From Bacteroidota bacterium (GTDB lineage Bacteria > Bacteroidota > Bacteroidia > B-17B0 > Aurantibacillaceae), in assembly GCA_030681615.1 (NCBI GenBank), contig JAUXSA010000195.1, forward strand, positions 1 through 64,000: DNA of 64,000 nucleotides, in the 5' to 3' direction. Shown here piece by piece: positions 437-58,315 of the stretch. The position numbers and the translations under genes are program-made. The notes beneath the pieces were generated by a model, which had not been told where the DNA came from, searched no databases, and saw only the letters and a list, made by a program, of their open reading frames with translations. Numbering within the stretch: position 1 is the first letter of the stretch; each line of letters opens with the position of its first letter.

Positions 437-2548
437 ATGTTTTCGATGGATAAGGTTCCTAAAAGAACTGTTTACTCTTTTTTGCTTTTTTTTAGCGCCT
501 GGTTTTTTACCAGCGCTCAGGAAAGTAATAAAGATGAATTAGTTTCGGGCTATATAAAAGTTTTAACTACGCTCTGGGAAAGATCTAACACAAAAACATT
601 TGATAATTATATTGTTGATTCAACTTTAAGTATAAAGTCAGAGCCCTTTAAAATAGTAAGCGATTCAAATAGCCAGCAACAACAAAAAGAACAATTGCTT
701 CGCCTTAATAAATTACAACAAGCCATTAATAAAAAAGATGTTGGATTAAAATACACTTTAAATTACCAGGAAAATTTTAATTCGCCGGTGGCAGACCCCT
801 TGGAGATAGTTGTGTTTAAACGTAGGGCCGTAACGGGTATTGACTGGGATATTTTAAAGGGTGGCATTTTTGACAACCGCACAAAAAATAAAATACTAAA
901 ACTAGAGTACGAGGCATTAGAAAAAAAACAATACACAACCAGCCTGCTTGCTTTCCAGGCAAAAAATACTGAACAGCTTATTCGTCACTTTAACGCAAAA
1001 AAAATAGAGATACTTGATTCGCGCAAAAAACTAAATAACGAACAAACAGTAACCGTTGAAAAACTCTGGTCTATTAAACACATTACAAAAGATGATTATT
1101 TAAAGGCTATTCAAAACACAACCGATATTAATGCGCAGTATAATGTTTACAGGAATTATAATGAAGCCGAATTAAAGAACAGGGAGAGTTTTGATTTCGA
1201 CCTTCCTATTTTAGATATTGAGCTTGCCAAACTTTTTCAAAGTGCCGATGTTATCTCAACCGATACTTCTGTGCTTGGACCAAACAGTGAGATAGCAAAA
1301 CTAAAATCTTTATTTATAAATGAGGTTAGTTTTAGTACTTATGCACGATACAGTTATTATGATGTATATAACAGTGTTCAACCTAACAGAACATTTATGT
1401 CAGTAGGTATGAACCTTGCCGTTCCGTTAACTTTTAATCAAAAAGAAAAAAGAGAGTATTACATGTTGCAACGGCAAATGGCTGATCAAAGAGATGAAGT
1501 GGTCAATCATGACATTCAAATAAATCTTTTAAATTATTATTACGAATACCAATATAAATTAAAACAGTTTAAAAATCTTTACCATAAACGTTTGGTGTTT
1601 TTAGAATTGTTGCGTACAGAACGTGTTAAGCATGAACTCAACGATATGGAGTTTAATCCAAACACCGCTTTGTTTATTTTAGATGATTACTGGAGTAATG
1701 CTATAGAGTTGTTAGATCTTAAACAGGATATGTACAAGATACTGTTAACACTAAAAACTAAATTGCCAAACGTAAATATAACCGAATACACCAAACCGTT
1801 AAACTTAAACAACCTTAATATTGCATCATCCAACCCGCCATTTAAAGCGGTGTATGTTTGGAGCGACGCTTTTAAAAATCATTCACAAACTGTTATTAAT
1901 GAATACTGCAAAGTAAACGAGTTTAATCCTATACTTATTTCATACAACACAAACAAAATTTATTTACAGGATGTTTCGGAATTTATTTCTAATAATTATA
2001 CTTCCAATATTCATTTAATGCTTGGTAGTAATAAACTTTTAAAAACGGGCCTTAGTGGTTATTTAGATACTTTAAAGAACAACATAAAGCTTTCTTTTGT
2101 AAAAGGCATTCACCTCGATCTTGAGCCGCATACGGTACCGGGCTTTAAAGAGAATAAGGAAGCTTCTTTTGAGAATTACATAACCGTACTTAAACAGGCT
2201 AAAAAATTTGCAGATGATAATAAATTAGAATTATCTGTTTCCATCCCATTATCTTATCCTGAAAATGTATTGGAAGAAATAAATAAGAATTGTAACACGG
2301 TTTATTTAATGGCTTACGAAAATGTTGCGCCCGATTTTATAATTAAAAAATCTACAGAAGAAAAAGCAATATTAAAAACAAAATGTGTTTTAGCCCTTCG
2401 CACAAAGGATTTTGATAACAGAACTGATATGGACCAGCAATTTAAAAAACTGGGTTTCGAAAAAACAGCTTACCACGACCTCGATGACCTTATAAAATTT
2501 GACAATACAAGTATTAACGTGAAGGACGACAACAAAAAAGAAAAATGA
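437..2548 (+). CDS. TolC-like outer-membrane protein fused to a GH18-like TIM-barrel domain
   Basis: 703 residues; the true start may be the second Met (446), just before an N-terminal signal peptide ending near SAQ. Residues about 30-450 are rich in helices and coiled coil, with a beta-like stretch near 295-335 (TYARYSYYDVYN, MSVGMNLAVPL), as in TolC-type outer-membrane efflux proteins. Residues about 468-690 look like a glycoside-hydrolase-18-type barrel: strand 4 reads GIHLDLEPH (D561 and E563 of a DxE motif) and strand 6 reads VYLMAYE. The stop overlaps the start of the HlyD-like gene (ATGA). Inference: an outer-membrane exit duct for a polysaccharide, carrying its own sugar-binding or sugar-cleaving domain. 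TolC assignment is moderate; the barrel assignment rests on motifs only. Confidence 0.7.
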   Translation: MFSMDKVPKRTVYSFLLFFSAWFFTSAQESNKDELVSGYIKVLTTLWERSNTKTFDNYIVDSTLSIKSEPFKIVSDSNSQQQQKEQLLRLNKLQQAINKKDVGLKYTLNYQENFNSPVADPLEIVVFKRRAVTGIDWDILKGGIFDNRTKNKILKLEYEALEKKQYTTSLLAFQAKNTEQLIRHFNAKKIEILDSRKKLNNEQTVTVEKLWSIKHITKDDYLKAIQNTTDINAQYNVYRNYNEAELKNRESFDFDLPILDIELAKLFQSADVISTDTSVLGPNSEIAKLKSLFINEVSFSTYARYSYYDVYNSVQPNRTFMSVGMNLAVPLTFNQKEKREYYMLQRQMADQRDEVVNHDIQINLLNYYYEYQYKLKQFKNLYHKRLVFLELLRTERVKHELNDMEFNPNTALFILDDYWSNAIELLDLKQDMYKILLTLKTKLPNVNITEYTKPLNLNNLNIASSNPPFKAVYVWSDAFKNHSQTVINEYCKVNEFNPILISYNTNKIYLQDVSEFISNNYTSNIHLMLGSNKLLKTGLSGYLDTLKNNIKLSFVKGIHLDLEPHTVPGFKENKEASFENYITVLKQAKKFADDNKLELSVSIPLSYPENVLEEINKNCNTVYLMAYENVAPDFIIKKSTEEKAILKTKCVLALRTKDFDNRTDMDQQFKKLGFEKTAYHDLDDLIKFDNTSINVKDDNKKEK

Positions 2549-3669
2549 AAAGTGTAAACTTTCAAAGAAATAAAGCATTAATAAGAGTTGTTAACGAACA
2601 GCATATAAAAAAACAACGCAACTGGGACAGGATCATGTACCTTGGGTTGCTTGGTTTTTTCCTGATCTTTGTTATTTATTATGTTGCTTCAAAATATTTA
2701 TTCATACACGCATACGGACATGTGATAATTGAGAGCACGCGTATACGACTTACTGATGATGCCAGGATAATTGAATTTTTTGTACAAGAAGGCGACCGGA
2801 TAAAAAAGAACGATACACTTTTTTCTTATGCGTTAGACCGGGATGATGACATTAGCGGAAATTCTTCTTATGCTCAGTCAGTAAACATTGGCTCTATTAT
2901 GGGGGGTTCGCGTGATGACTGGTGGGTAAAAGAAATATACGCCTTAAAGAAAAAAATTGCGCTCAACAATATTGATATGTCTGAGAATGATAATTTAGTA
3001 TCAGGATACAAAAAAGAAATTAAACGCGTATCAAACGAAGTTATTTTAGATGTGTTGCCAAAATCGCGTTTAGAGTTTCTTCAAAATGAAATTATTACCT
3101 TAAATACAGAAAATAAAAAACTGGATAAAGAGAACAGGGAATTAAATTCATTAATGAAAACCCTTGGCCCTTCCAAAAGTCAGAAAAGTATTAATGGGGT
3201 AAATATTCGTTCAAGAAAAGGCAATGGTGTTGGGGACAAAGAAGGGGTGAGTAAATTAGATTTTAGTGAAGAATTATTAACGCAGGCAAAATATTTTAGA
3301 TCGCCAATGAATGGTATTGCTACCCGCATTTATATACACGGATACGAAACAGCTTTAAAAACCGAAGAGATAATGGCTTTACATGAAGCGCAACCCGCTT
3401 ACATTAAAGCCTATTTTGAACAGGAAGACCTGCGCTATTTTAAAGAGGGCGATCTTTTCTCGATCGAATTTCCGGATGGCACTGTTAGCAAAGGTATCTT
3501 AAGGCGTTTTTATATTGCCACTTATACCTTGCCGGAAGAGTTCCAGAAAAAATATGAACCAACAACCAGAAGTATTGCTGCAGATATTTACCCATTGGAT
3601 ACTTTAGAAATTAAAAAATGGAAAACCTTCTACAAAATGAGTGTAGACATTTCTAAATTAAAACTTTAA
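2545..3669 (+). CDS. HlyD-like membrane fusion (periplasmic adaptor) protein
   Basis: 374 residues. There is a short cytoplasmic N-terminus, one membrane helix at about residues 31-50, then a lipoyl-like half-motif (IIEFFVQEGDRIKKNDTLF), a periplasmic coiled coil at about 150-215, a second lipoyl-like half (YFRSPMNGIATRIYIHGY), and a beta-barrel-like C-terminus (AYIKAYFEQEDLRYFKEGD). This is the order found in HlyD/EmrA-type adaptors that connect an inner-membrane machine to TolC. It overlaps the TolC-like gene by four bases and is followed after six bases by the TackOD1 gene, so translation is probably coupled. The inner-membrane partner here is most likely the glycosyltransferase at 5112, since no ABC transporter is present. 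Confidence 0.8.
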   Translation: MKSVNFQRNKALIRVVNEQHIKKQRNWDRIMYLGLLGFFLIFVIYYVASKYLFIHAYGHVIIESTRIRLTDDARIIEFFVQEGDRIKKNDTLFSYALDRDDDISGNSSYAQSVNIGSIMGGSRDDWWVKEIYALKKKIALNNIDMSENDNLVSGYKKEIKRVSNEVILDVLPKSRLEFLQNEIITLNTENKKLDKENRELNSLMKTLGPSKSQKSINGVNIRSRKGNGVGDKEGVSKLDFSEELLTQAKYFRSPMNGIATRIYIHGYETALKTEEIMALHEAQPAYIKAYFEQEDLRYFKEGDLFSIEFPDGTVSKGILRRFYIATYTLPEEFQKKYEPTTRSIAADIYPLDTLEIKKWKTFYKMSVDISKLKL

Positions 3670-3675
3670 CCAACG

Positions 3676-5115
3676 ATGGACGCGTTAGTAAAAAATAAAT
3701 TTGAGTTTAACAACAATGTATTAAATTTTTCTAATAAATCATTTTATTATTTAGAAAGTTTTAGTGCGATGAAAATTGATGCGCTAAATAAATACGACGC
3801 CATTATTCTGGATGCGCGTGATGTTGAGTTTGCGAGGATCATTCTAAAAAAATTCAGAAGCTCGTCTAATGTTGAATTTTATTTAAAGCCCATTTTTTTA
3901 ATTAACGCCAAAGCAAACGAAGATCCATTATTAAAAGAATTAATTGACGGCATTATTGTTTCTTTCGATCAAATTCCTGAAACAATAAACGATATTAACC
4001 AGATAAGCATAAAGATCGCGCAGCTGGAAAGCTCTACCTCTAATTCGTTTGAAGTACAGTTATTTAAAAAAGTATTGAACTTTATGTTCACGCGCGAAAC
4101 AAATACCTTTACCCCCTACCCCGATATTCTTTCGTCTATTGGTTATTGTTACCCAACCATATCTGTAAATTTTGAAACCTTTGAAGAAGCAAAAGTTTTA
4201 GAATTATTGGAGTGGGCCGAAAAAGAAAATTTGATATGGCCCGATTTTTTAGACCGCGTTTATTTGTGCAGCAACTGTAAGAACGGGCATTTATCATATA
4301 GAGAGATCTGTCCTAATTGTGATTCGGCAAACATGCGTTCTGAAGATCTTGTGCATCATTTCCCTTGCGGGTATATTGGGGCCATTAGCGATTTTAAAAA
4401 TAATGTAGATACGGTTTTAAATTGCCCTAAGTGTACAAAGAATCTACGACACATTGGAGTGGATTACGATAAACCTTCAATCATCAATCACTGTCAAAAT
4501 TGTAACGAGGTTTTCCAGGATTATTTGGTAAAAGCAAAATGCGCGCATTGTAAAACGGATACGGATGTACAATTCTTACTCTCAAAAAACATTAACGTTT
4601 ATAAATTAACCAAAAAAGGAAGAACGGCTGCCGTTGGTGGAATTTCTGCTTCTGATTTTTCGTTAAGCAACGAGGTGTTTGGCACCGTTAATTTAAAAAC
4701 ATTTGCTACCATGATGCATTATGAGCAGGAGCGTATAAAAAACAATCCTGCATTAAATGCCAATGTTGTAATTATTTATATTGAAAATATTTTTGATCTC
4801 TATCGTAAAATTGGAAAGTCGAAAGAGCGTGAGCTTTTAGCGGAGTTCGTAAATATTGTAAGAGATAATATTACGCCGGCAGATTTTATTTGTATCAATA
4901 ATCCTTCTGTTTTAAGCGTGTGTATTAATGATACCCCTTTACAGAACGCGCAAATAATGGTAATGAAAATTACCGATAAGCTGGAAGAATTAGTATACAA
5001 TAATTTTGACCGCTTTGCTTTAAATGTATTTACGCAAACTGTTGAGTTAAGTAAAGAACAATCTTTTGATAAACAACTTCACGTGCTTATTAAAGAAATA
5101 GTTGAGAAAGGATGA
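3676..5115 (+). CDS. Receiver-like / TackOD1 zinc-binding / degenerate GGDEF regulatory protein
   Basis: 479 residues, no signal peptide, so cytoplasmic. Residues about 1-115 resemble a pseudo-receiver fold (KYDAIILDARD, then YLKPIFLINAKA). Residues about 185-295 match the TackOD1 metal-binding domain: paired cysteines C198/C201, C212/C215, C250/C253, C273/C276 and C289/C292, plus HHFPCGYIG (C231) and the characteristic LRHIGVDYDKP. The last 140 residues look like a GGDEF-type domain in which the catalytic GGDEF motif is absent (CINNPSVLSVCIND occupies that position), so diguanylate cyclase activity is not expected. Inference: it senses a signal or c-di-GMP and controls the synthase encoded next, comparable in logic to PelD. 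It overlaps the next gene by four bases. Confidence 0.72.
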   Translation: MDALVKNKFEFNNNVLNFSNKSFYYLESFSAMKIDALNKYDAIILDARDVEFARIILKKFRSSSNVEFYLKPIFLINAKANEDPLLKELIDGIIVSFDQIPETINDINQISIKIAQLESSTSNSFEVQLFKKVLNFMFTRETNTFTPYPDILSSIGYCYPTISVNFETFEEAKVLELLEWAEKENLIWPDFLDRVYLCSNCKNGHLSYREICPNCDSANMRSEDLVHHFPCGYIGAISDFKNNVDTVLNCPKCTKNLRHIGVDYDKPSIINHCQNCNEVFQDYLVKAKCAHCKTDTDVQFLLSKNINVYKLTKKGRTAAVGGISASDFSLSNEVFGTVNLKTFATMMHYEQERIKNNPALNANVVIIYIENIFDLYRKIGKSKERELLAEFVNIVRDNITPADFICINNPSVLSVCINDTPLQNAQIMVMKITDKLEELVYNNFDRFALNVFTQTVELSKEQSFDKQLHVLIKEIVEKG

Positions 5116-6422
5116 TAGACGCGTTTGATGAATTTTTAAATTATATTACCACTGTTGGTCCGTTAAAACTATTACGGATCTTTTGGTTCTTTGTTTTTTT
5201 TGAATTTGCGCGTTTTTTTATTTTTGAATTAGCTGTTGTTATCGTTTGGAAATTAAGAGAGCCCGTTCGTAAAAAATTATATGCAAACGCCCGCAGAAGA
5301 TTGTTCATTGAAAGGCCGCTGGTCTCTATAATTGTACCGGGCAAAAATGAAGGACTTCATATTTACAAATTAGCCAACTCGCTTAAAGAGCAAACCTATA
5401 AGAACTTTGAGTTTATTGTTATTGACGACGGGTCGGATGATGATACCGAACGTATTTGTAAAAGTTTACAAAAGAATGGTTTCATTGATCTCTTTCTTAG
5501 AAATGAAGTACGTGGTGGAAAAGCTTCTGCCGCAAATTTAGGTTACCGTTTTTCGAAGGGAAAAATTATTGTGCATTTAGATGCCGATTGTAGTTACGAT
5601 AACGATGCGCTTGAAAAAATTATTATTCCTTTTTATTTAGATGATAATGTTGGTTCTGTTGGTGGAAATATTTTAGTAAGGAATTACAGGGAGAATCTTT
5701 GCACTACTTTACAAGCCATAGAATATTCAGATACCATTTCTGTTGGAAGGATCACTTCCAGCGCGTTAGGCATTTACCGTGTGGTATCTGGCGCCTTTGG
5801 TGCCTTTAAACGCGAAGCTTTGGATCGTGTTGGCGGTTGGGATATTGGCCCTGGTTTAGATGGCGACATTACGGTTAAATTAAGAAAGTTAGGATACAGA
5901 ATTGTTTTTGAACCCGAAGCAATTTGCCAGACAAGCGTACCAAATACATTTAAAAAATTAGTGAAACAGCGTTTGCGTTGGGATAAATCCATCATTCGTT
6001 TTAGGGTACGTAAACACCGCGATGTGTTTTATCCAAATGCTACTTTTAGTTTTTCTAACTTTGTTTCAAGCGCCGAAAACATTACTTACAATTTATTATT
6101 GAATATAAAATGGTGGTTGTATCTGGTAGATATGGTTATGAATTATACATCGCTTTTGTGGTTTATTTTTCCATTTAATATTTTATTGTACACCATAAAT
6201 AATTTTTTAAAGTTCCTTGTGTTCTCTTTATTTAGAACCAGGAAGAACGCACCGGTTATTTATTTTGTGCCTTATTTGCCCTGTATGGTTATTTATTTTG
6301 GTTATTATTTACGACTGGTTAGATCGGTAGCATACATACAGGAATTCTTCTTTAAACGTTCTTATAAAGATGCCTGGAACCCTCCTAAATCGTCGAGTCA
6401 CGCAAAAGAACTGGGAATTTAA
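5112..6422 (+). CDS. Processive family-2 glycosyltransferase (exopolysaccharide synthase)
   Basis: 436 residues. An N-terminal membrane helix (about 22-45) precedes a GT-A domain with the complete motif set of processive beta-glycosyltransferases such as BcsA, PgaC and hyaluronan synthase: D105/D106 in VIDDGSD, D157-A-D159, the general-base region D250/D252 in GLDGDIT, and Q286-R-L-R-W290 for product binding. At least three membrane helices follow (about 325-415). Such enzymes polymerise and translocate a glycan across the inner membrane from UDP-sugars. It is the last gene of a tightly spaced four-gene operon with TolC-like, HlyD-like and TackOD1 proteins, supporting an envelope-spanning polysaccharide export complex. 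The sugar cannot be told from sequence; there is no PilZ domain. Confidence 0.88.
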   Translation: MIDAFDEFLNYITTVGPLKLLRIFWFFVFFEFARFFIFELAVVIVWKLREPVRKKLYANARRRLFIERPLVSIIVPGKNEGLHIYKLANSLKEQTYKNFEFIVIDDGSDDDTERICKSLQKNGFIDLFLRNEVRGGKASAANLGYRFSKGKIIVHLDADCSYDNDALEKIIIPFYLDDNVGSVGGNILVRNYRENLCTTLQAIEYSDTISVGRITSSALGIYRVVSGAFGAFKREALDRVGGWDIGPGLDGDITVKLRKLGYRIVFEPEAICQTSVPNTFKKLVKQRLRWDKSIIRFRVRKHRDVFYPNATFSFSNFVSSAENITYNLLLNIKWWLYLVDMVMNYTSLLWFIFPFNILLYTINNFLKFLVFSLFRTRKNAPVIYFVPYLPCMVIYFGYYLRLVRSVAYIQEFFFKRSYKDAWNPPKSSSHAKELGI

Positions 6423-47484: not shown

Positions 47485-50235
47485 GTGAAAAGACTTTTAG
47501 TACTATTGTTTATATGTTTGTCTGTTTATGGCTTTGCTACGCACAACCGCGCCGGAGAGATCTTATATAAACGAATTGCCCCATATACTCAGGTGGTTGG
47601 TAATATCACAGTGCAGGTTTACACTTACTCAATAACACTTATCAAATATACAGATCATGGTAGCGGTGTTGCCGATAGGTGTGTAGATACAATTTACTTT
47701 GGCGACGGGCAAAGAGGTATTGCCTCAAGGATCAACAGCCACTCATCAGTTACCAATTGTGATTGTGATGATTGCGGAGAATTAATAATAAACAATCCGG
47801 GCTATGTGGTAAAAAAAAATATTTATACGATCATTCACACGTATGCAGGTTCTGGTAGTTATTTAATTCATTCATTTGATCCTAACAGGAATGGCGGCGT
47901 AATAAACATCCCCAATTCTATTAATCAACCTTTTTACCTCGAATCATTACTCATAATTAATAATTTTTCCGGGGCTAACTCGTCACCCGAATTTAAATAC
48001 CCGCCAATAGATAGAGCCTGTTTTGATAAATGTTTTTATCATAATCCCGGCGCTTACGACACGGATGGGGATAGCTTAAGTTATGAAATTTCAACCTCGA
48101 GGGCAGAAAGCGGACAAACGGTTCCTGGGTATTCTTTTCCTGATGCGGGATCTGGAGGGGTTTATGGAATTAATCCTATTACAGGATTGTTAACCTGGTG
48201 TAAACCACAAGGGCAGGGCGAATACAACCTCGCATTTGTTGTAAAAGAGTGGCGAAAGAACACCAGCGGCATTTATCAGTTAATCGGTTTTGTTTTGCGC
48301 GATATGCAGGTAGTAGTAGGCGCTTGTCCAAATAACGACCCTCCGTTTGTGAATGTGCCAATTGATACCTGTGTGGAAGCGGGCGCATTAATTACCAAGA
48401 ACATTGTGTATGGCGACCCAAACATTTGTACTGTTACTATACAAGGAAATGGTGGAGCCTTTTCAGCCCCTCCACCAGTTGCTACATTAAGCAATACAAG
48501 TTTTTCAACTTCCGCATCTATACAAAGCACCATTGCTGCTTTTTCGTGGCAAACAAACTGTGGCCATATTCGTTTACAACCTTATCAAACCGTTTTTAAA
48601 GTAGAAGATAATGGATTACCATCTATAAATTTTAACCCTATTAAACTGGTTAATTTTGCCACATACAATATCCGCGTTATACCGCCATCTGTAAAAAATG
48701 TAACCGCAACGCCGCAGGGGTCGTCTATGAACATTTCCTGGTCGCTTTCTTCTTGTAACCCTACAAACAATCCGATCATTAATTATAAAATTTACAGGAA
48801 GAACGATTGTACTCCATTTACATACGATCCCTGCGAAACAGGCGTATCGCCAAGCTCGGGGTTTACATATATTGGTCAAACAACACCTACCATTAGCACT
48901 TTTCTTGACAATAATGGAGGAAATGGTTTAGTGGTTGGACAGGATTATAGTTATTTAGTGATCGCGGTTTATAAAGATGGGTCTCAAAGTTATGGCAGCT
49001 CTTTAGTGTGCGCAAAATTAAAACGCGATATACCGGTACTTTTAAACGTTGATATTATGTCAACTTCTGTTTCTACAGGTTCGGTTTTTGTGCGTTGGGA
49101 AAAACCACTTACCAACATAACAAGTCTGGATACAATTGCATTACCCGGCCCCTATCAATTTAATTTAAAACACCGAGCAGGCTCATCTGGCACTTACACA
49201 ACCGTTTTTAATTCTACAAGCCCTTTCTTTTTAAATCTTGCTACTCAGTTTACACACAGCGGTCTTAATACCGAAGCCACTAACCACGAATATGTGGTAG
49301 AATTTATTGCTAACACTACTACTGTTGGAACATCGCAGCGTGCCACCTCTATCTTTTTAACCACCACCCCGGGCGATAGACGGATTAATCTGCAATGGAA
49401 TTCTTCTACACCATGGAATAATTATAAATATACAGTATTCCGCAAAGATCCGTCAGCAGCTACCTTTACAGCCGTTGCAACAACATCATTAACAAATTAT
49501 TCTGACACAACAAATATTGTAAATAGTAACAGCACGCGCAGTTATGTTTATTGTTATAAAATTTTAGGAGAGGGACAGTACTCAGATCCGACAATCACCA
49601 AACCGTTATTAAATAATTCACAGGAAAAATGCGCAACGGCTACAGACCTTACACCGCCTTGTACACCAACCCTTTCTATTGTTGCCGATTGTCCAAGCGG
49701 AAAGGTAGAAATAAGCTGGACTAATGTAAAACCTATTTGCAGCGATGACGTGATACAGTATAATTTATTTTATAAACCAACTATTGACGAACCATACGCA
49801 CAAGTTGCAACATTAAACGGCGCCGCTTCTACATTCTTTAATTACGATGGTTTAGAATTGATCTCGGGTTGTTACGCAGTACAGTCGGTTGACTCAAGTA
49901 ACAACGTGAGTCCTTTAAGCCCTGATTTTTGTATAGATAATTGCCCGATATTTGAATTACCCAATATTATTACATTAAATAAAGATGGTGTAAACGATTT
50001 CTTTAAAGCCATTAGGGTGCGCCAGATAAAAGAAATAGATCTTGTTATTTTTGACCGTTGGGGCAATTTAGTTTATAAGACCACAGACCCTTACTTTAAG
50101 TGGGATGGTACTAGCCTGCAAAGCAAACAGATTGTGAGCGAAGGAACCTTCTTTTATATCTGCGATGTGTTTGAGCCCCGTTTAAAAGGTATTGTTAAGC
50201 GCAACCTGAAGGGGTATATGCAGGTGGTTAAGTAA
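47485..50235 (+). CDS. Large T9SS type B secreted protein (gliding-motility-associated C-terminal domain), copy 1
   Basis: 916 residues, starting at GTG (MKRLLVLLFICLSVYGFA signal peptide); there is no ATG at the right place. The start of the mature protein, ATHNRAGEI, is a common opening of Bacteroidota surface proteins. Beta-rich Ig/FN3-like domains follow (for example VKNVTATPQGSSMNISWSLS and SVFVRWEKP). The last 95 residues are the CHU_C/gliding-motility-associated sorting domain: LPNIITLNKDGVNDFFK, IFDRWGNLVYK, WDGTSLQSK, GTFFYICDV. It is probably exported by the type IX system and attached or released at the surface. It is followed 69 bases later by a close paralogue. Confidence 0.88.
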   Translation: MKRLLVLLFICLSVYGFATHNRAGEILYKRIAPYTQVVGNITVQVYTYSITLIKYTDHGSGVADRCVDTIYFGDGQRGIASRINSHSSVTNCDCDDCGELIINNPGYVVKKNIYTIIHTYAGSGSYLIHSFDPNRNGGVINIPNSINQPFYLESLLIINNFSGANSSPEFKYPPIDRACFDKCFYHNPGAYDTDGDSLSYEISTSRAESGQTVPGYSFPDAGSGGVYGINPITGLLTWCKPQGQGEYNLAFVVKEWRKNTSGIYQLIGFVLRDMQVVVGACPNNDPPFVNVPIDTCVEAGALITKNIVYGDPNICTVTIQGNGGAFSAPPPVATLSNTSFSTSASIQSTIAAFSWQTNCGHIRLQPYQTVFKVEDNGLPSINFNPIKLVNFATYNIRVIPPSVKNVTATPQGSSMNISWSLSSCNPTNNPIINYKIYRKNDCTPFTYDPCETGVSPSSGFTYIGQTTPTISTFLDNNGGNGLVVGQDYSYLVIAVYKDGSQSYGSSLVCAKLKRDIPVLLNVDIMSTSVSTGSVFVRWEKPLTNITSLDTIALPGPYQFNLKHRAGSSGTYTTVFNSTSPFFLNLATQFTHSGLNTEATNHEYVVEFIANTTTVGTSQRATSIFLTTTPGDRRINLQWNSSTPWNNYKYTVFRKDPSAATFTAVATTSLTNYSDTTNIVNSNSTRSYVYCYKILGEGQYSDPTITKPLLNNSQEKCATATDLTPPCTPTLSIVADCPSGKVEISWTNVKPICSDDVIQYNLFYKPTIDEPYAQVATLNGAASTFFNYDGLELISGCYAVQSVDSSNNVSPLSPDFCIDNCPIFELPNIITLNKDGVNDFFKAIRVRQIKEIDLVIFDRWGNLVYKTTDPYFKWDGTSLQSKQIVSEGTFFYICDVFEPRLKGIVKRNLKGYMQVVK

Positions 50236-50304
50236 CTCAGGCCAAAAACACACGTTTTTCAAGAAAAAATTGTCAGGTTGCGGTAAATGCTCTAACTTTA
50301 ATTA

Positions 50305-53067
50305 ATGAAAAAAAGTTTAAGTATATTTTTTCTTTTTCTTTCTGCATTCACTTTTGCAACACATAACCGGGCGGGCGAAATTACATATAAACGAATTGCA
50401 CCTTTCACACAGTTTATTCCCGGCGCGGGCAACTCGCCGATCTATAAATATTTAATAACTGTTACAAAATACACCGATCATAGTTATAGCGGGCACGAGG
50501 TGGCCGACAGGTGTGTGGATACAGTATATTTTGGTGATGGACAAAGAGCCGTTGCTTACAGGGTAAACGGAGGAAGTACACTTAATTGCGATTGCGCGGA
50601 CGATGTGCCTTGCGGTGCTTTAATAATTGATGAGAACAATTATAAAGTAAAAGTAAATATATATACGGTTGAACATGTATACCCGGGCACAGGCACTTAC
50701 AAAATACGCTCGTCCGACCCAAACAGGAATGAAGGGGTACACAATATTCCAAATTCTGATGATCAGTATTTTTATCTTGAGTCGTTTTTAATAATTAATA
50801 ATTTTTCAGGCGCTAATTCATCACCTGAATTTAAATATCCACCAATCGATAAAGCGTGTTTTGGTAAATGTTTTTATCATAACCCGGGAGCTTATGATTC
50901 AGATGGCGATAGTTTGAGTTATATAATTTCTACTTCAAGAGGGCAGGATGGAAATACTGTTCCCGGTTATTTTGCGCCAAACGCAGAAGGAAGCATATAT
51001 AATATTCACCCGGTTACCGGCCTTTTAACCTGGTGTACACCACAATTTCAGGGAGAATATAACCTAGCGTTTATAGTACAAGAGTGGCGAAAGAACACAA
51101 GCGGCATTTATCAACTTATTGGCACAGTGTTGCGTGATATGCAGGTTGTGGTTGGACAATGCCCTACAAACGATCCACCTTTTGTTACTGTGCCAAAAGA
51201 TACTTGTGTTGAAGCTGGGGCAATAGTTAGCAAAAGCATTATTTATGGTGATCCTAATCCATCCTCAGTAATTACCCTGCAGGGCAATGGTGGCGCTTTT
51301 TCCGGACCTCTTCCCTTGGCAAATTTATCAAACACGAGTTTTGTAACTAACACTACAATTACAACAGCGCCCGCGGCTTTCTTTTGGCAAACCGCCTGCA
51401 GTCATATTCGTTTACAGCCCTATCAAACAGTCTTTAAAGCAGAGGATGACGGCAAGCCTCAGGGCATTCCAATCAAACTGGTATATTTTGCAACATACAA
51501 CATTCGTGTTGTTCCTCCTTCTGTAAAAAATGTAACAGCTATACCGCAAGGCTCATCTATGAATATTAATTGGCAGCTTTCTTCTTGCAGCCCAACCAAC
51601 AATCCAATTATCGCTTATAAAATCTACAGGAAGAACGATTGCTCTGTTTTTACATACGATCCTTGTGAAACCGGTGTACCCGCAAGCTCAGGTTTTGTAG
51701 AGGTCGGGCAAACAACACCAACCGTTTCAACGTTTATTGATAATGGTGGCGGCAACGGGCTAACCGTTGGGCAGGATTACAGTTATCTTGTAATTGCAGT
51801 TTATAAAGATGGTTCTCAAAGTTATGGCAGCTCAATGGTGTGCGCAAAATTAAAACGCGATGTGCCGGTATTATTAAATGTAGATGTACTTTCAACTTCT
51901 GTTACAACAGGTTCGGTTTTTGTGCGTTGGGAAAGACCACTTACTAATGTTGGAAACCTTGATACGCTTATTTTCTCGGGACCATACCAATTTAATTTAA
52001 AATATCGTTCGGGTGGCATGGCTACTTACACAACAGTTTATAATTCTGCAAGTCCGTATTTTTTAGCGCTTGCCACACAATTTACGCACACAAATATAAA
52101 TACTGATGCAATGAATCATGAGTACCTGTTAGAGTTTGTTGCCAACACAACAACAGTGGGATCATCTCAACGAGCAACTTCTATATTTTTAACCACAACC
52201 CCTGGCGACAGGCGCATAGATCTGCAATGGAATTCTTTTACACCATGGAATAATTATAAGTACACTGTTTTTCGTAAAGATCCGTCATCAGCAACTTTCA
52301 CAGCTATTACAACAACGTCTTTAACTAATTATTCTGACACAAGCAACATCGTAAATAGTAACGGCACACGTAATTATATTTACTGTTATAAAATTTTAGG
52401 AGAAGGGCAGTACTCAGATCCGTCAATTACCAAACCGTTATTAAATAATTCACAAGAAAAATGTGCTACCGCAATAGATCTAACCGCTCCTTGCACGCCA
52501 ACGCTATCTATTAATGCCGATTGTCCAACTGGATTGGTTGAGGTAAGCTGGACCAATGTAAAAAATAGTTGTAGTGACGACGTTATAAAATATATTTTGT
52601 CGTACAAAGAAACTATTGATGATGAGTACAAAGTTGTTACTACACTCACGGGTCCGGCATCAACAGTTTTTATTTCAGATGGTTTGGATTTGATTTCAGG
52701 TTGTTATGCGATCCAATCGGTAGATTCCAGCAATAATGTGAGCGCTTTAAGTCCCGATTTTTGTATTGATAATTGTCCCGAGTTTGAATTACCCAATATT
52801 GTTACTTTAAATGGCGACGGCGTAAATGACTTTTTTAAAGCCATCAGAGTTCGCCAGATAAAAGAGATAGACCTCGTTATTTTTGACCGCTGGGGCACTT
52901 TGGTTTACAAAACAAACGATCCTTATTTTAAATGGGACGGCACAAGCCTTCAAAGCAAACTATTAGTAAGCGAAGGAACATTCTTTTACATTTGCGATGT
53001 ATTTGAACCCCGTTTAAAAGGCATCGTAAAACGTAGTCTAAAAGGTTATATGCAGGTGGTTAAGTAA
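50305..53067 (+). CDS. Large T9SS type B secreted protein, copy 2 (tandem paralogue)
   Basis: 920 residues from an ATG. It aligns end to end with the preceding gene: the same signal and ATHNRAGEI start, the same NIPNS, NNFSGANSSPEFKYPPID and CFYHNPGAYDSDGDSLSY segments, the same FN3-like units and a nearly identical 95-residue C-terminal sorting domain. Differences cluster in the N-terminal third (an inserted GAGNSP, a different loop with CDCADDVPCG) and near residues 340-380. A recent tandem duplication is the simplest explanation. Ligand-binding diversification is possible. Confidence 0.88.
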   Translation: MKKSLSIFFLFLSAFTFATHNRAGEITYKRIAPFTQFIPGAGNSPIYKYLITVTKYTDHSYSGHEVADRCVDTVYFGDGQRAVAYRVNGGSTLNCDCADDVPCGALIIDENNYKVKVNIYTVEHVYPGTGTYKIRSSDPNRNEGVHNIPNSDDQYFYLESFLIINNFSGANSSPEFKYPPIDKACFGKCFYHNPGAYDSDGDSLSYIISTSRGQDGNTVPGYFAPNAEGSIYNIHPVTGLLTWCTPQFQGEYNLAFIVQEWRKNTSGIYQLIGTVLRDMQVVVGQCPTNDPPFVTVPKDTCVEAGAIVSKSIIYGDPNPSSVITLQGNGGAFSGPLPLANLSNTSFVTNTTITTAPAAFFWQTACSHIRLQPYQTVFKAEDDGKPQGIPIKLVYFATYNIRVVPPSVKNVTAIPQGSSMNINWQLSSCSPTNNPIIAYKIYRKNDCSVFTYDPCETGVPASSGFVEVGQTTPTVSTFIDNGGGNGLTVGQDYSYLVIAVYKDGSQSYGSSMVCAKLKRDVPVLLNVDVLSTSVTTGSVFVRWERPLTNVGNLDTLIFSGPYQFNLKYRSGGMATYTTVYNSASPYFLALATQFTHTNINTDAMNHEYLLEFVANTTTVGSSQRATSIFLTTTPGDRRIDLQWNSFTPWNNYKYTVFRKDPSSATFTAITTTSLTNYSDTSNIVNSNGTRNYIYCYKILGEGQYSDPSITKPLLNNSQEKCATAIDLTAPCTPTLSINADCPTGLVEVSWTNVKNSCSDDVIKYILSYKETIDDEYKVVTTLTGPASTVFISDGLDLISGCYAIQSVDSSNNVSALSPDFCIDNCPEFELPNIVTLNGDGVNDFFKAIRVRQIKEIDLVIFDRWGTLVYKTNDPYFKWDGTSLQSKLLVSEGTFFYICDVFEPRLKGIVKRSLKGYMQVVK

Positions 53068-56362: not shown

Positions 56363-58315
56363 CTGCAACTGTCTGTAATCATAGTTAACTACAACGTAAA
56401 GCACTTTTTAGAACAGTGTCTTTTTTCTGTCTTTAAAGCATTAAAGAACATTAATGCAGAGGTCATAGTTGTAGACAATAACTCTGTAGATGGCTCTATA
56501 GCGCTCATAAAGGGCAAATTCCCACAAGTAAGCTTAATTGCAAATACAACCAATACAGGCTTTTCCGTTGCCAATAACCAGGGTATAAAGATCGCTAAAG
56601 GCAAATATGTCCTTTTACTTAACCCCGATACTGTTGTGCAGGAGGATACATTTGAGAAAACCCTTGCATTTATGGAAGAACATCCCGAAGCAGGAGGGTT
56701 AGGGATCAAAATGCTGGATGGGAAGGGTAATTTTTTACCCGAAAGCAAACGTGGGCTTCCAACCCCGGCGGTAGCATTTTATAAAATATTTGGACTTGCA
56801 AAATTATTTCCCGGCTCTAAAAAATTTGGTCAGTACCATTTAACATTCTTAGATAAGAATAAAACGCACCAAATAGATATTTTAAGCGGCGCTTTTATGT
56901 TAATGCGTAAAGCAGCTTTAGATAAGGTTGGTTTGCTTGATGAAACTTTTTTTATGTATGGCGAGGATATCGATCTTTCTTATCGCATTACACAAGGAGG
57001 GTATAAAAATTATTATTTTGCCGATAGTAGCATTATTCATTACAAAGGCGAAAGCACAAAAAAAAGCAGCGTTAATTATGTAATTGTGTTTTACAAAGCC
57101 ATGGCAATTTTTGCACAAAAACATTTTACACAAAATCACGCGCGCACGTTTCGCTTCTTAATTTACCTTGCCATTTATTTACGCGCAGCAGCAGCTATAA
57201 CGGCTCGCTTCATTAAACAATGGTTTTTCCCGGCAATAGATTTTACGTTGGTTTTATTAGGACTTTATCTTTGCAAGACTATTTACGAGATCAACTTTAA
57301 ACTTACGCCTAATTTTTATTCGCACGAAACACTCAACTTTTTCTTTCCCATTTATACTTTAGTCTGGATGTTCTTTGTATACCTAAGTGGCGGTTATGAC
57401 GTGCCGTTACGCCTTACCAAAGTTGTAAGAGGAGTTTTAGCAGGAACAGCTTTTATTCTGATCGTGTATTCTCTTTTACCGGAATATTATCGTTTTTCGC
57501 GTGCATTAATTTTAATTGGTTCTGCTTATACTTTAGCAATTTATTTAGTAATGCGTTTAATTTATCACGGGTTAAAAATTAAAAAATTTAAGATCGGTGG
57601 TTACAAAACAAATGCACGAATTGCAATTATTGGCAGTGAGTTAGAGTTTAACCGCGTTAACGATATCCTTAAAAAAACAAACATAAAGTCAGAATTCATT
57701 GGCTTTATAAGTAACGAGAATAATGGCATTAAGAACGAAGCCTACATTGGCCACTTTCACCAGATCAACGAAGCGATTGATGTACACCAGTTAAACGAAA
57801 TTATTTTTTGCGCAAGAGATATTTCTTCGCGGGAAATTATTGATAAAATGATAACACTGGTTACAAAAGGCGTTGAGTTTAAAATTGCCCCACCAGAAAG
57901 TCTTTCTATTATCGGCAGTAACAGTATTGATACAGCCGGCGATCTTTATGTGATAGATGTAAACAATGTGGGTAGACCTGAGAACAGACGTAAAAAGAGA
58001 TTATTGGATCTTATTGTGAGCGCCACTGCCCTGTTATTCTTTTGGATCTTTCTTTTTTTGCAAAAAAATAAACTTAATTTTATTGCCAACGCTTTTAAAG
58101 TTTTAGTGGGCATTTATTCATGGGTGGGTTATGGTAAAAACCCTCGTAAAGATTTGCCTTCCATTCGCCCTTCCATATTAACACCGTCCGACCTTCTTGG
58201 AGAAAACATATCCGAAGACCGCATTAACAAAGCCTTTTTAAACTACTCTAAAGATTATAAAATTGAGAATGATCTTAAAATCATTTTCTCTCAAATAAGC
58301 AATTTAGGCAGATAA
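56363..58315 (+). CDS. Family-2 glycosyltransferase fused to a membrane and nucleotide-binding-like C-terminus; probable CTG start
   Basis: 650 residues if translation starts at CTG 56363. The frame is open only from 56351 and has no ATG/GTG/TTG before 56636, yet it encodes the essential GT-A start QLSVIIVNYNVKHFLEQCL, VVDNNSVDGS and LLLNPDTVV. The donor and acceptor regions continue (LSGAFMLMRKAALDKVG, FFMYGEDIDLSYRI). From about residue 275 there are four membrane helices, then a Rossmann-like domain (ARIAIIGSELEFNRVNDIL, LNEIIFCARDIS) as in CapD/WbaP-type proteins. The end (RKKRLLDLIVSATALLFFWIF) resembles the start of a phosphoglycosyl transferase without its catalytic part. Probably acts in surface glycan assembly. 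Confidence 0.8.
   Translation: MQLSVIIVNYNVKHFLEQCLFSVFKALKNINAEVIVVDNNSVDGSIALIKGKFPQVSLIANTTNTGFSVANNQGIKIAKGKYVLLLNPDTVVQEDTFEKTLAFMEEHPEAGGLGIKMLDGKGNFLPESKRGLPTPAVAFYKIFGLAKLFPGSKKFGQYHLTFLDKNKTHQIDILSGAFMLMRKAALDKVGLLDETFFMYGEDIDLSYRITQGGYKNYYFADSSIIHYKGESTKKSSVNYVIVFYKAMAIFAQKHFTQNHARTFRFLIYLAIYLRAAAAITARFIKQWFFPAIDFTLVLLGLYLCKTIYEINFKLTPNFYSHETLNFFFPIYTLVWMFFVYLSGGYDVPLRLTKVVRGVLAGTAFILIVYSLLPEYYRFSRALILIGSAYTLAIYLVMRLIYHGLKIKKFKIGGYKTNARIAIIGSELEFNRVNDILKKTNIKSEFIGFISNENNGIKNEAYIGHFHQINEAIDVHQLNEIIFCARDISSREIIDKMITLVTKGVEFKIAPPESLSIIGSNSIDTAGDLYVIDVNNVGRPENRRKKRLLDLIVSATALLFFWIFLFLQKNKLNFIANAFKVLVGIYSWVGYGKNPRKDLPSIRPSILTPSDLLGENISEDRINKAFLNYSKDYKIENDLKIIFSQISNLGR

Follow-up and report, generated by a model that had tools for sequence, protein, structure and literature searches.

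A TackOD1-associated operon of Bacteroidota as a candidate synthase-dependent exopolysaccharide secretion system with a GT2-HlyD-TolC duct

The four genes at positions 437-6422 of the window (the whole stretch of 64,000 nucleotides analysed here, from a Bacteroidota bacterium) most probably constitute a synthase-dependent exopolysaccharide secretion operon, in which a GT2 synthase works with an HlyD-TolC duct, a TackOD1 control protein and a surface deacetylase; we put the probability of this reading at about 0.7, and the product is probably a partly deacetylated N-acetylhexosamine polymer. The roles in synthesis, export, trimming, gating and deacetylation are inferred from the anatomy of the genes and from their co-occurrence. 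All four genes lie on the plus strand, and in the ORF list their products have 703, 374, 479 and 436 aa: a TolC-like channel fused to a GH18/PgaB-like barrel (437-2548), an HlyD/EmrA-like periplasmic adaptor (2545-3669), the TackOD1 protein with its putative control role (3676-5115), and a processive-type GT2 synthase whose closest curated model is PgaC/IcaA (5112-6422). The ORF coordinates bear out the compact layout described in the first-pass annotation, with ATGA overlaps of 4 bases between TolC-GH and HlyD (2545-2548) and between TackOD1 and GT2 (5112-5115), and a gap of 6 bases between HlyD and TackOD1 (3670-3675). The unit starts 437 bases into its contig (C198) in a genome of 4.28 Mb that is 97.8% complete, promoter and terminator scans of it gave chance level only, and its nearest named relatives in a TackOD1 protein search are uncultured Bacteroidia. 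In the open-access literature searched, TackOD1 is named in one paper, and we found no description of the gene set TolC-GH, HlyD, TackOD1 and GT2.

The four genes indeed form a conserved unit. As a check, the first-pass annotation had proposed a search across Bacteroidota for TolC-GH18, HlyD and GT2 genes beside TackOD1, and such neighbours were found: among the 80 named loci retrieved by the TackOD1-protein search, 71 show the complete set in unchanged order by profile, while the remaining 9 miss some parts, mostly through contig ends. In the family panel, the TolC-GH gene is present in 16 of the 61 genomes and all four genes stand together in 15 of these, the sixteenth (G017) being cut off behind HlyD, where its 4.6-kb contig stops. 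In the phylum panel, an unbiased draw of 296 genomes in which TackOD1 was counted above the Pfam cut-off, it occurs in 10 genomes at 11 places, and at all 11 the TolC-like, HlyD, TackOD1 and GT2 genes are found together in the same order, with one or two extra genes between HlyD and TackOD1 in some loci; the TolC-like gene of one genome (G124) was assigned by similarity clustering, not by match to the window protein. Since this order is repeated phylum-wide at identities down to about 20-30%, the unit is far beyond chance. Moreover, the outcomes that the first-pass annotation had named as contrary to its reading are absent, as the genes are co-conserved and HMM searches assign them neither to efflux nor to lipid glycosylation.

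Several other genes accompany the unit in part of the loci. One genome carries two differing complete systems about 12 kb apart (L055 and L056, on contig C116 of G263), and a protein of about 400-656 aa recurs adjoining or inside the operon in L057 (12274-14238, with DUF4114), L058, L059, L060 and L214. A protein with CotH-kinase, lamin-tail and sorting-tail parts lies downstream of GT2 in 19 of the 80 named loci, for example at L090:13420-16062; it was considered as a fixed partner and rejected, being accessory at most, because at E 1e-30 it is found in only 4 genomes of the family panel, all of them operon-bearing, and the window genome has none. Elsewhere in the window, at 47485-53067, there are two adjacent proteins of 916 and 920 aa with CHU_C type IX secretion tails.

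As for the synthase (5112-6422), the window protein matches GT2 Pfam families with up to 96.8 bits, and D106, D157/D159, D250/D252 and QxxRW are invariant in 35 aligned members, so that the D, DxD, D, QxxRW set read earlier from the single sequence holds for the family. The PgaC_IcaA model matches all 35 members with the best E-value among all models, which supports the earlier view of a processive-type synthase, and the window protein reaches 171 bits against it (cut-off 422); the CelA model gives only 21.9 bits (cut-off 699), and PilZ has no match in the window GT2. The GT2 also has weaker matches to HpnI and to further models for glycosyltransferases of lipids or proteins, which would fit an enzyme that glycosylates a lipid or a protein, the product being exported or processed by HlyD and TolC-GH; such a role seems very unlikely to us, given the complete processive motif set with its invariant QxxRW and the polymer-type hydrolase and deacetylase partners. 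For the polymer synthase that we prefer, the mechanism is least certain as to its substrate, because every GT2 tested scores far under the PgaC cut-off; it is the PgaC-like scores taken together with a GlcNAc-type hydrolase fold and a deacetylase that point to an N-acetylhexosamine polymer. A second glycosyltransferase, of PF13641, is found in another neighbourhood of the window (56369-58315), next to DsbD-like genes.

The hydrolase fold belongs to the first protein of the unit (437-2548). Its residues ~73-449 are assigned to a TolC-like outer-membrane channel by an OEP/TolC Pfam match (26.2 bits) and by an AlphaFold2 model (58-sequence alignment, mean pLDDT 84.5), and residues 467-695 form a GH18/PgaB-like (beta/alpha)8 barrel in the same model, where four beta strands and long TolC-type helices are followed by the eight-stranded barrel. 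In structure comparison the model resembles TolC with Z 17.8, and its barrel resembles chitinases and chitinase-like proteins of the GH18 fold with Z up to 18.7 and the C-terminal domain of E. coli PgaB with Z 17.9 over 222 residues at 3.3 A; by Foldseek, the top match of the model apart from TolC is PgaB. The GH18 chitinases, like the C-terminal domain of PgaB, act on GlcNAc polymers. Strand 4 of the barrel carries H559-x-D561-x-E563, and strand 6 carries M625-A-Y627-E628. Taking K556, H559, D561 and E563 as the DxxDxDxE positions, as we read them from the alignment and the known GH18 motif, two of the four strand-4 acids are replaced (K556, H559) and the last two are retained (D561, E563), this Asp-x-Glu pair being intact and invariant in the 58-member alignment. 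In two relatives, L104:805-3450 and L106:6177-8837, the TolC-GH protein reaches 881 and 886 aa; the latter was scanned with Pfam and has a YCF48/BNR-type N-terminal extension, the former being of similar length.

The adaptor (2545-3669) is predicted to have a single transmembrane helix near its N terminus (residues 27-57) and shows a weak HlyD match of its own (TIGR00998, E 3e-4), while HlyD_3 is matched by 23 of 31 relatives, and against the PDB the relatives find EmrA (E 4e-5). With these predicted folds, the earlier proposal of TolC and HlyD as a duct and of the fused barrel as a hydrolase is compatible. The same two proteins are similar to efflux components, and one may ask if the operon serves tripartite efflux or type I secretion, the glycosyltransferase being a passenger gene. 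This is most improbable, as no ABC, RND or MFS transporter gene was seen within the unit in any locus whose layout was examined, and the GT2 is retained in all complete loci as well as in the Pseudomonadota triplets described below. The joint encoding of HlyD and TolC-like genes with a GT2 agrees with export parts of the synthase type.

The control protein (3676-5115) is composed of a receiver-like domain (residues ~20-120, in the predicted model with pLDDT 86.8), a zinc-ribbon TackOD1 domain (residues 129-311), for which the window protein scores 169.5 bits with PF18551, and a GGDEF-fold domain without GGDEF motif (residues 332-479). The last is indicated by the model, which gives Z 18.7 with DosC in structure comparison, and by a profile match to 3ign (E 5e-6). 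In synthase-dependent exopolysaccharide systems, control by c-di-GMP is frequent and not universal. The first-pass annotation had set the TackOD1-GGDEF protein in the place of a c-di-GMP receptor, and this role is not supported, because the GGDEF motif is absent from every TackOD1 protein examined, including those of Gammaproteobacteria, and because the window's own genome has no GGDEF or EAL domains detectable by Pfam (PF00990 and PF00563, no match); both findings argue against c-di-GMP control. Several relatives have a true receiver as their first domain (for example L060, Pfam 88.7 bits) and a separate gene of about 110 aa similar to the N-terminal domain of the window protein. One genome with all four genes (G365) has a TackOD1 protein of 317 aa lacking the GGDEF-like part altogether. 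TackOD1 has been described as an archaeal output domain of obscure function that occurs with receiver domains (PMC5847659); there it was found in thaumarchaeal type IV pilus loci, whereas here it stands beside a GT2 synthase and an HlyD adaptor.

Besides the four genes, a separately encoded surface deacetylase is a probable fifth part of the system, and extends the earlier reading. In 11 named loci the operon contains or adjoins a gene for a CE4-like deacetylase with a T9SS tail, placed in one of them between HlyD and TackOD1. Its NodB-type motifs THDxD, HSxxH and RxG are invariant in nine aligned members; PF01522 matches two of the members scanned, the copy of the window genome having no match. 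This copy (contig C153:6070-8184) is 37% identical and lies apart from the operon. When matches confined to the sorting tail (query residues ~570-698) are left out, a full-length deacetylase is found in 14 of the 16 operon genomes of the family panel of 61 against none of the 45 others (Fisher p 5e-12, with genomes treated as independent and relatedness ignored), and in the window's genus in 6/6 genomes with the operon against 0/12 without it; the deacetylase is lacking in two operon bearers, G042 and G035, the latter a 75%-complete genome. Across the phylum panel only 3 of the 10 genomes with the operon have it, and 1 of the 286 others, so the deacetylase is a clade-level partner and not a universal one.

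The presence of other sugar enzymes in some loci suggests that the product is not the same in every clade. A TviB-like UDP-GlcNAc 6-dehydrogenase lies between HlyD and TackOD1 in four loci, all from another family and three from a single genus, and the barrel and the deacetylase are missing from these loci; in L045 and L046 a homologue is a short way upstream on the opposite strand, and GalE is present in two Rhodobacteraceae loci. These genes would favor a uronate-type or mixed polymer made by the same machine, with the deacetylase acting on N-acetylated uronic acid residues. We consider this unlikely, since PgaC is the top-scoring model for the GT2 family and the window's closest relatives have no dehydrogenase beside the operon.

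It is instructive to compare the N-acetylhexosamine system thus favored with known ones. It resembles the PNAG systems (pgaABCD/icaADBC) in a GT2 closest to PgaC/IcaA, a barrel similar to the glycoside hydrolase domain of PgaB, and a CE4-like deacetylase partner. The differences are that TolC and HlyD take the place of PgaA; that deacetylase and hydrolase, one protein in PgaB, are here divided between a hydrolase-like barrel on TolC and a separate T9SS-tailed deacetylase; that the control would be by a TackOD1 protein instead of c-di-GMP; and that no PgaD gene exists within the four-gene unit, which leaves no room for one. The system would work like the synthase-dependent ones and shares pga parts, but does not show features that define pga. 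Other modes of PNAG export have been raised as a possibility, and a fusion of hydrolase and pore has a precedent in the Zymomonas BcsZ-BcsC protein, where a periplasmic hydrolase is joined to a synthase-dependent outer-membrane pore (PMC7112194), although that is a cellulose system with other pore and hydrolase families. Among proposed architectures the closest is the cyanobacterial cellulose model XcsAB-TolC, in which a GT2 synthase, an HlyD-like adaptor and a TolC-type channel would form one duct; it was obtained by homology modelling and reported without experimental validation, with parts that lie dispersed in Thermosynechococcus (PMC12430437). The first-pass annotation, too, mentions a proposed cyanobacterial cellulose system with HlyD- and TolC-like parts. 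XcsA carries PilZ, whereas the window GT2 has no PilZ match and a CelA score under the cut-off, and in place of dispersed parts we find all of them in one conserved operon, TackOD1 included.

A wider TackOD1-GT2-HlyD core outside Bacteroidota also adds to the earlier reading. A TackOD1 protein search of plasmids gave matches in Pseudomonadota and haloarchaea. In all 12 proteobacterial records inspected (Plesiomonas, Photobacterium, Rhodobacteraceae M382, Alisedimentitalea, three of Phyllobacterium, Aminobacter, Methylocystis, Roseibium, Palleronia and Aeromonas), TackOD1 is followed by a GT2 and also by an HlyD-like gene by profile, the HlyD-like match being weak or composite in Photobacterium and Methylocystis, and the HlyD-like gene of Aeromonas following on the other side of the record start. 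The Aeromonas plasmid has a 694-aa TolC protein with GLHLDLE in its C-terminal part and a weak whole-protein profile match (10.2 bits); TackOD1, GT2, long TolC and HlyD are found together on this 29-kb A. caviae plasmid, typed as mobilizable (NZ_AP024951.1, L183 and L196). In Halorussus, TackOD1 is accompanied by a DUF2334 gene and a GT2, while four other haloarchaeal TackOD1 genes (L186, L189-L191) have neither a GT2 nor a DUF2334 neighbour. It is conceivable, at slightly less than even odds, that TackOD1 is the hallmark of a so far undescribed class of synthase systems for polysaccharides, spanning bacteria and archaea, with HlyD/TolC(-hydrolase) beside TackOD1 and GT2 in diderms, and with DUF2334 and GT2 and no outer-membrane duct in at least one haloarchaeon.

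To put the parts together, the GT2 in the inner membrane would polymerise a UDP-sugar, which in the window's clade is most likely an N-acetylhexosamine, and hand the chain to the periplasm, where the HlyD-like adaptor may link the synthase to the TolC-like channel, in the place of PgaA/PgaB or BcsB/BcsC, the export parts of known systems. At the periplasmic end of TolC, the fused barrel would trim or guide the chain, the cytoplasmic TackOD1 protein would gate the synthase on a receiver-type or protein signal and not on c-di-GMP, and the T9SS-secreted deacetylase (C153:6070-8184) may deacetylate the polymer at the cell surface. Operon bearers among the retrieved loci include the cultured Crocinitomix catalasitica and Brumimicrobium glaciale. 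If the proposed mechanism is true, TackOD1 would gain a role after having been described as obscure in function, and the so far unvalidated idea of a GT2-HlyD-TolC polysaccharide duct would become directly testable in cultured bacteria that have all parts in one operon.
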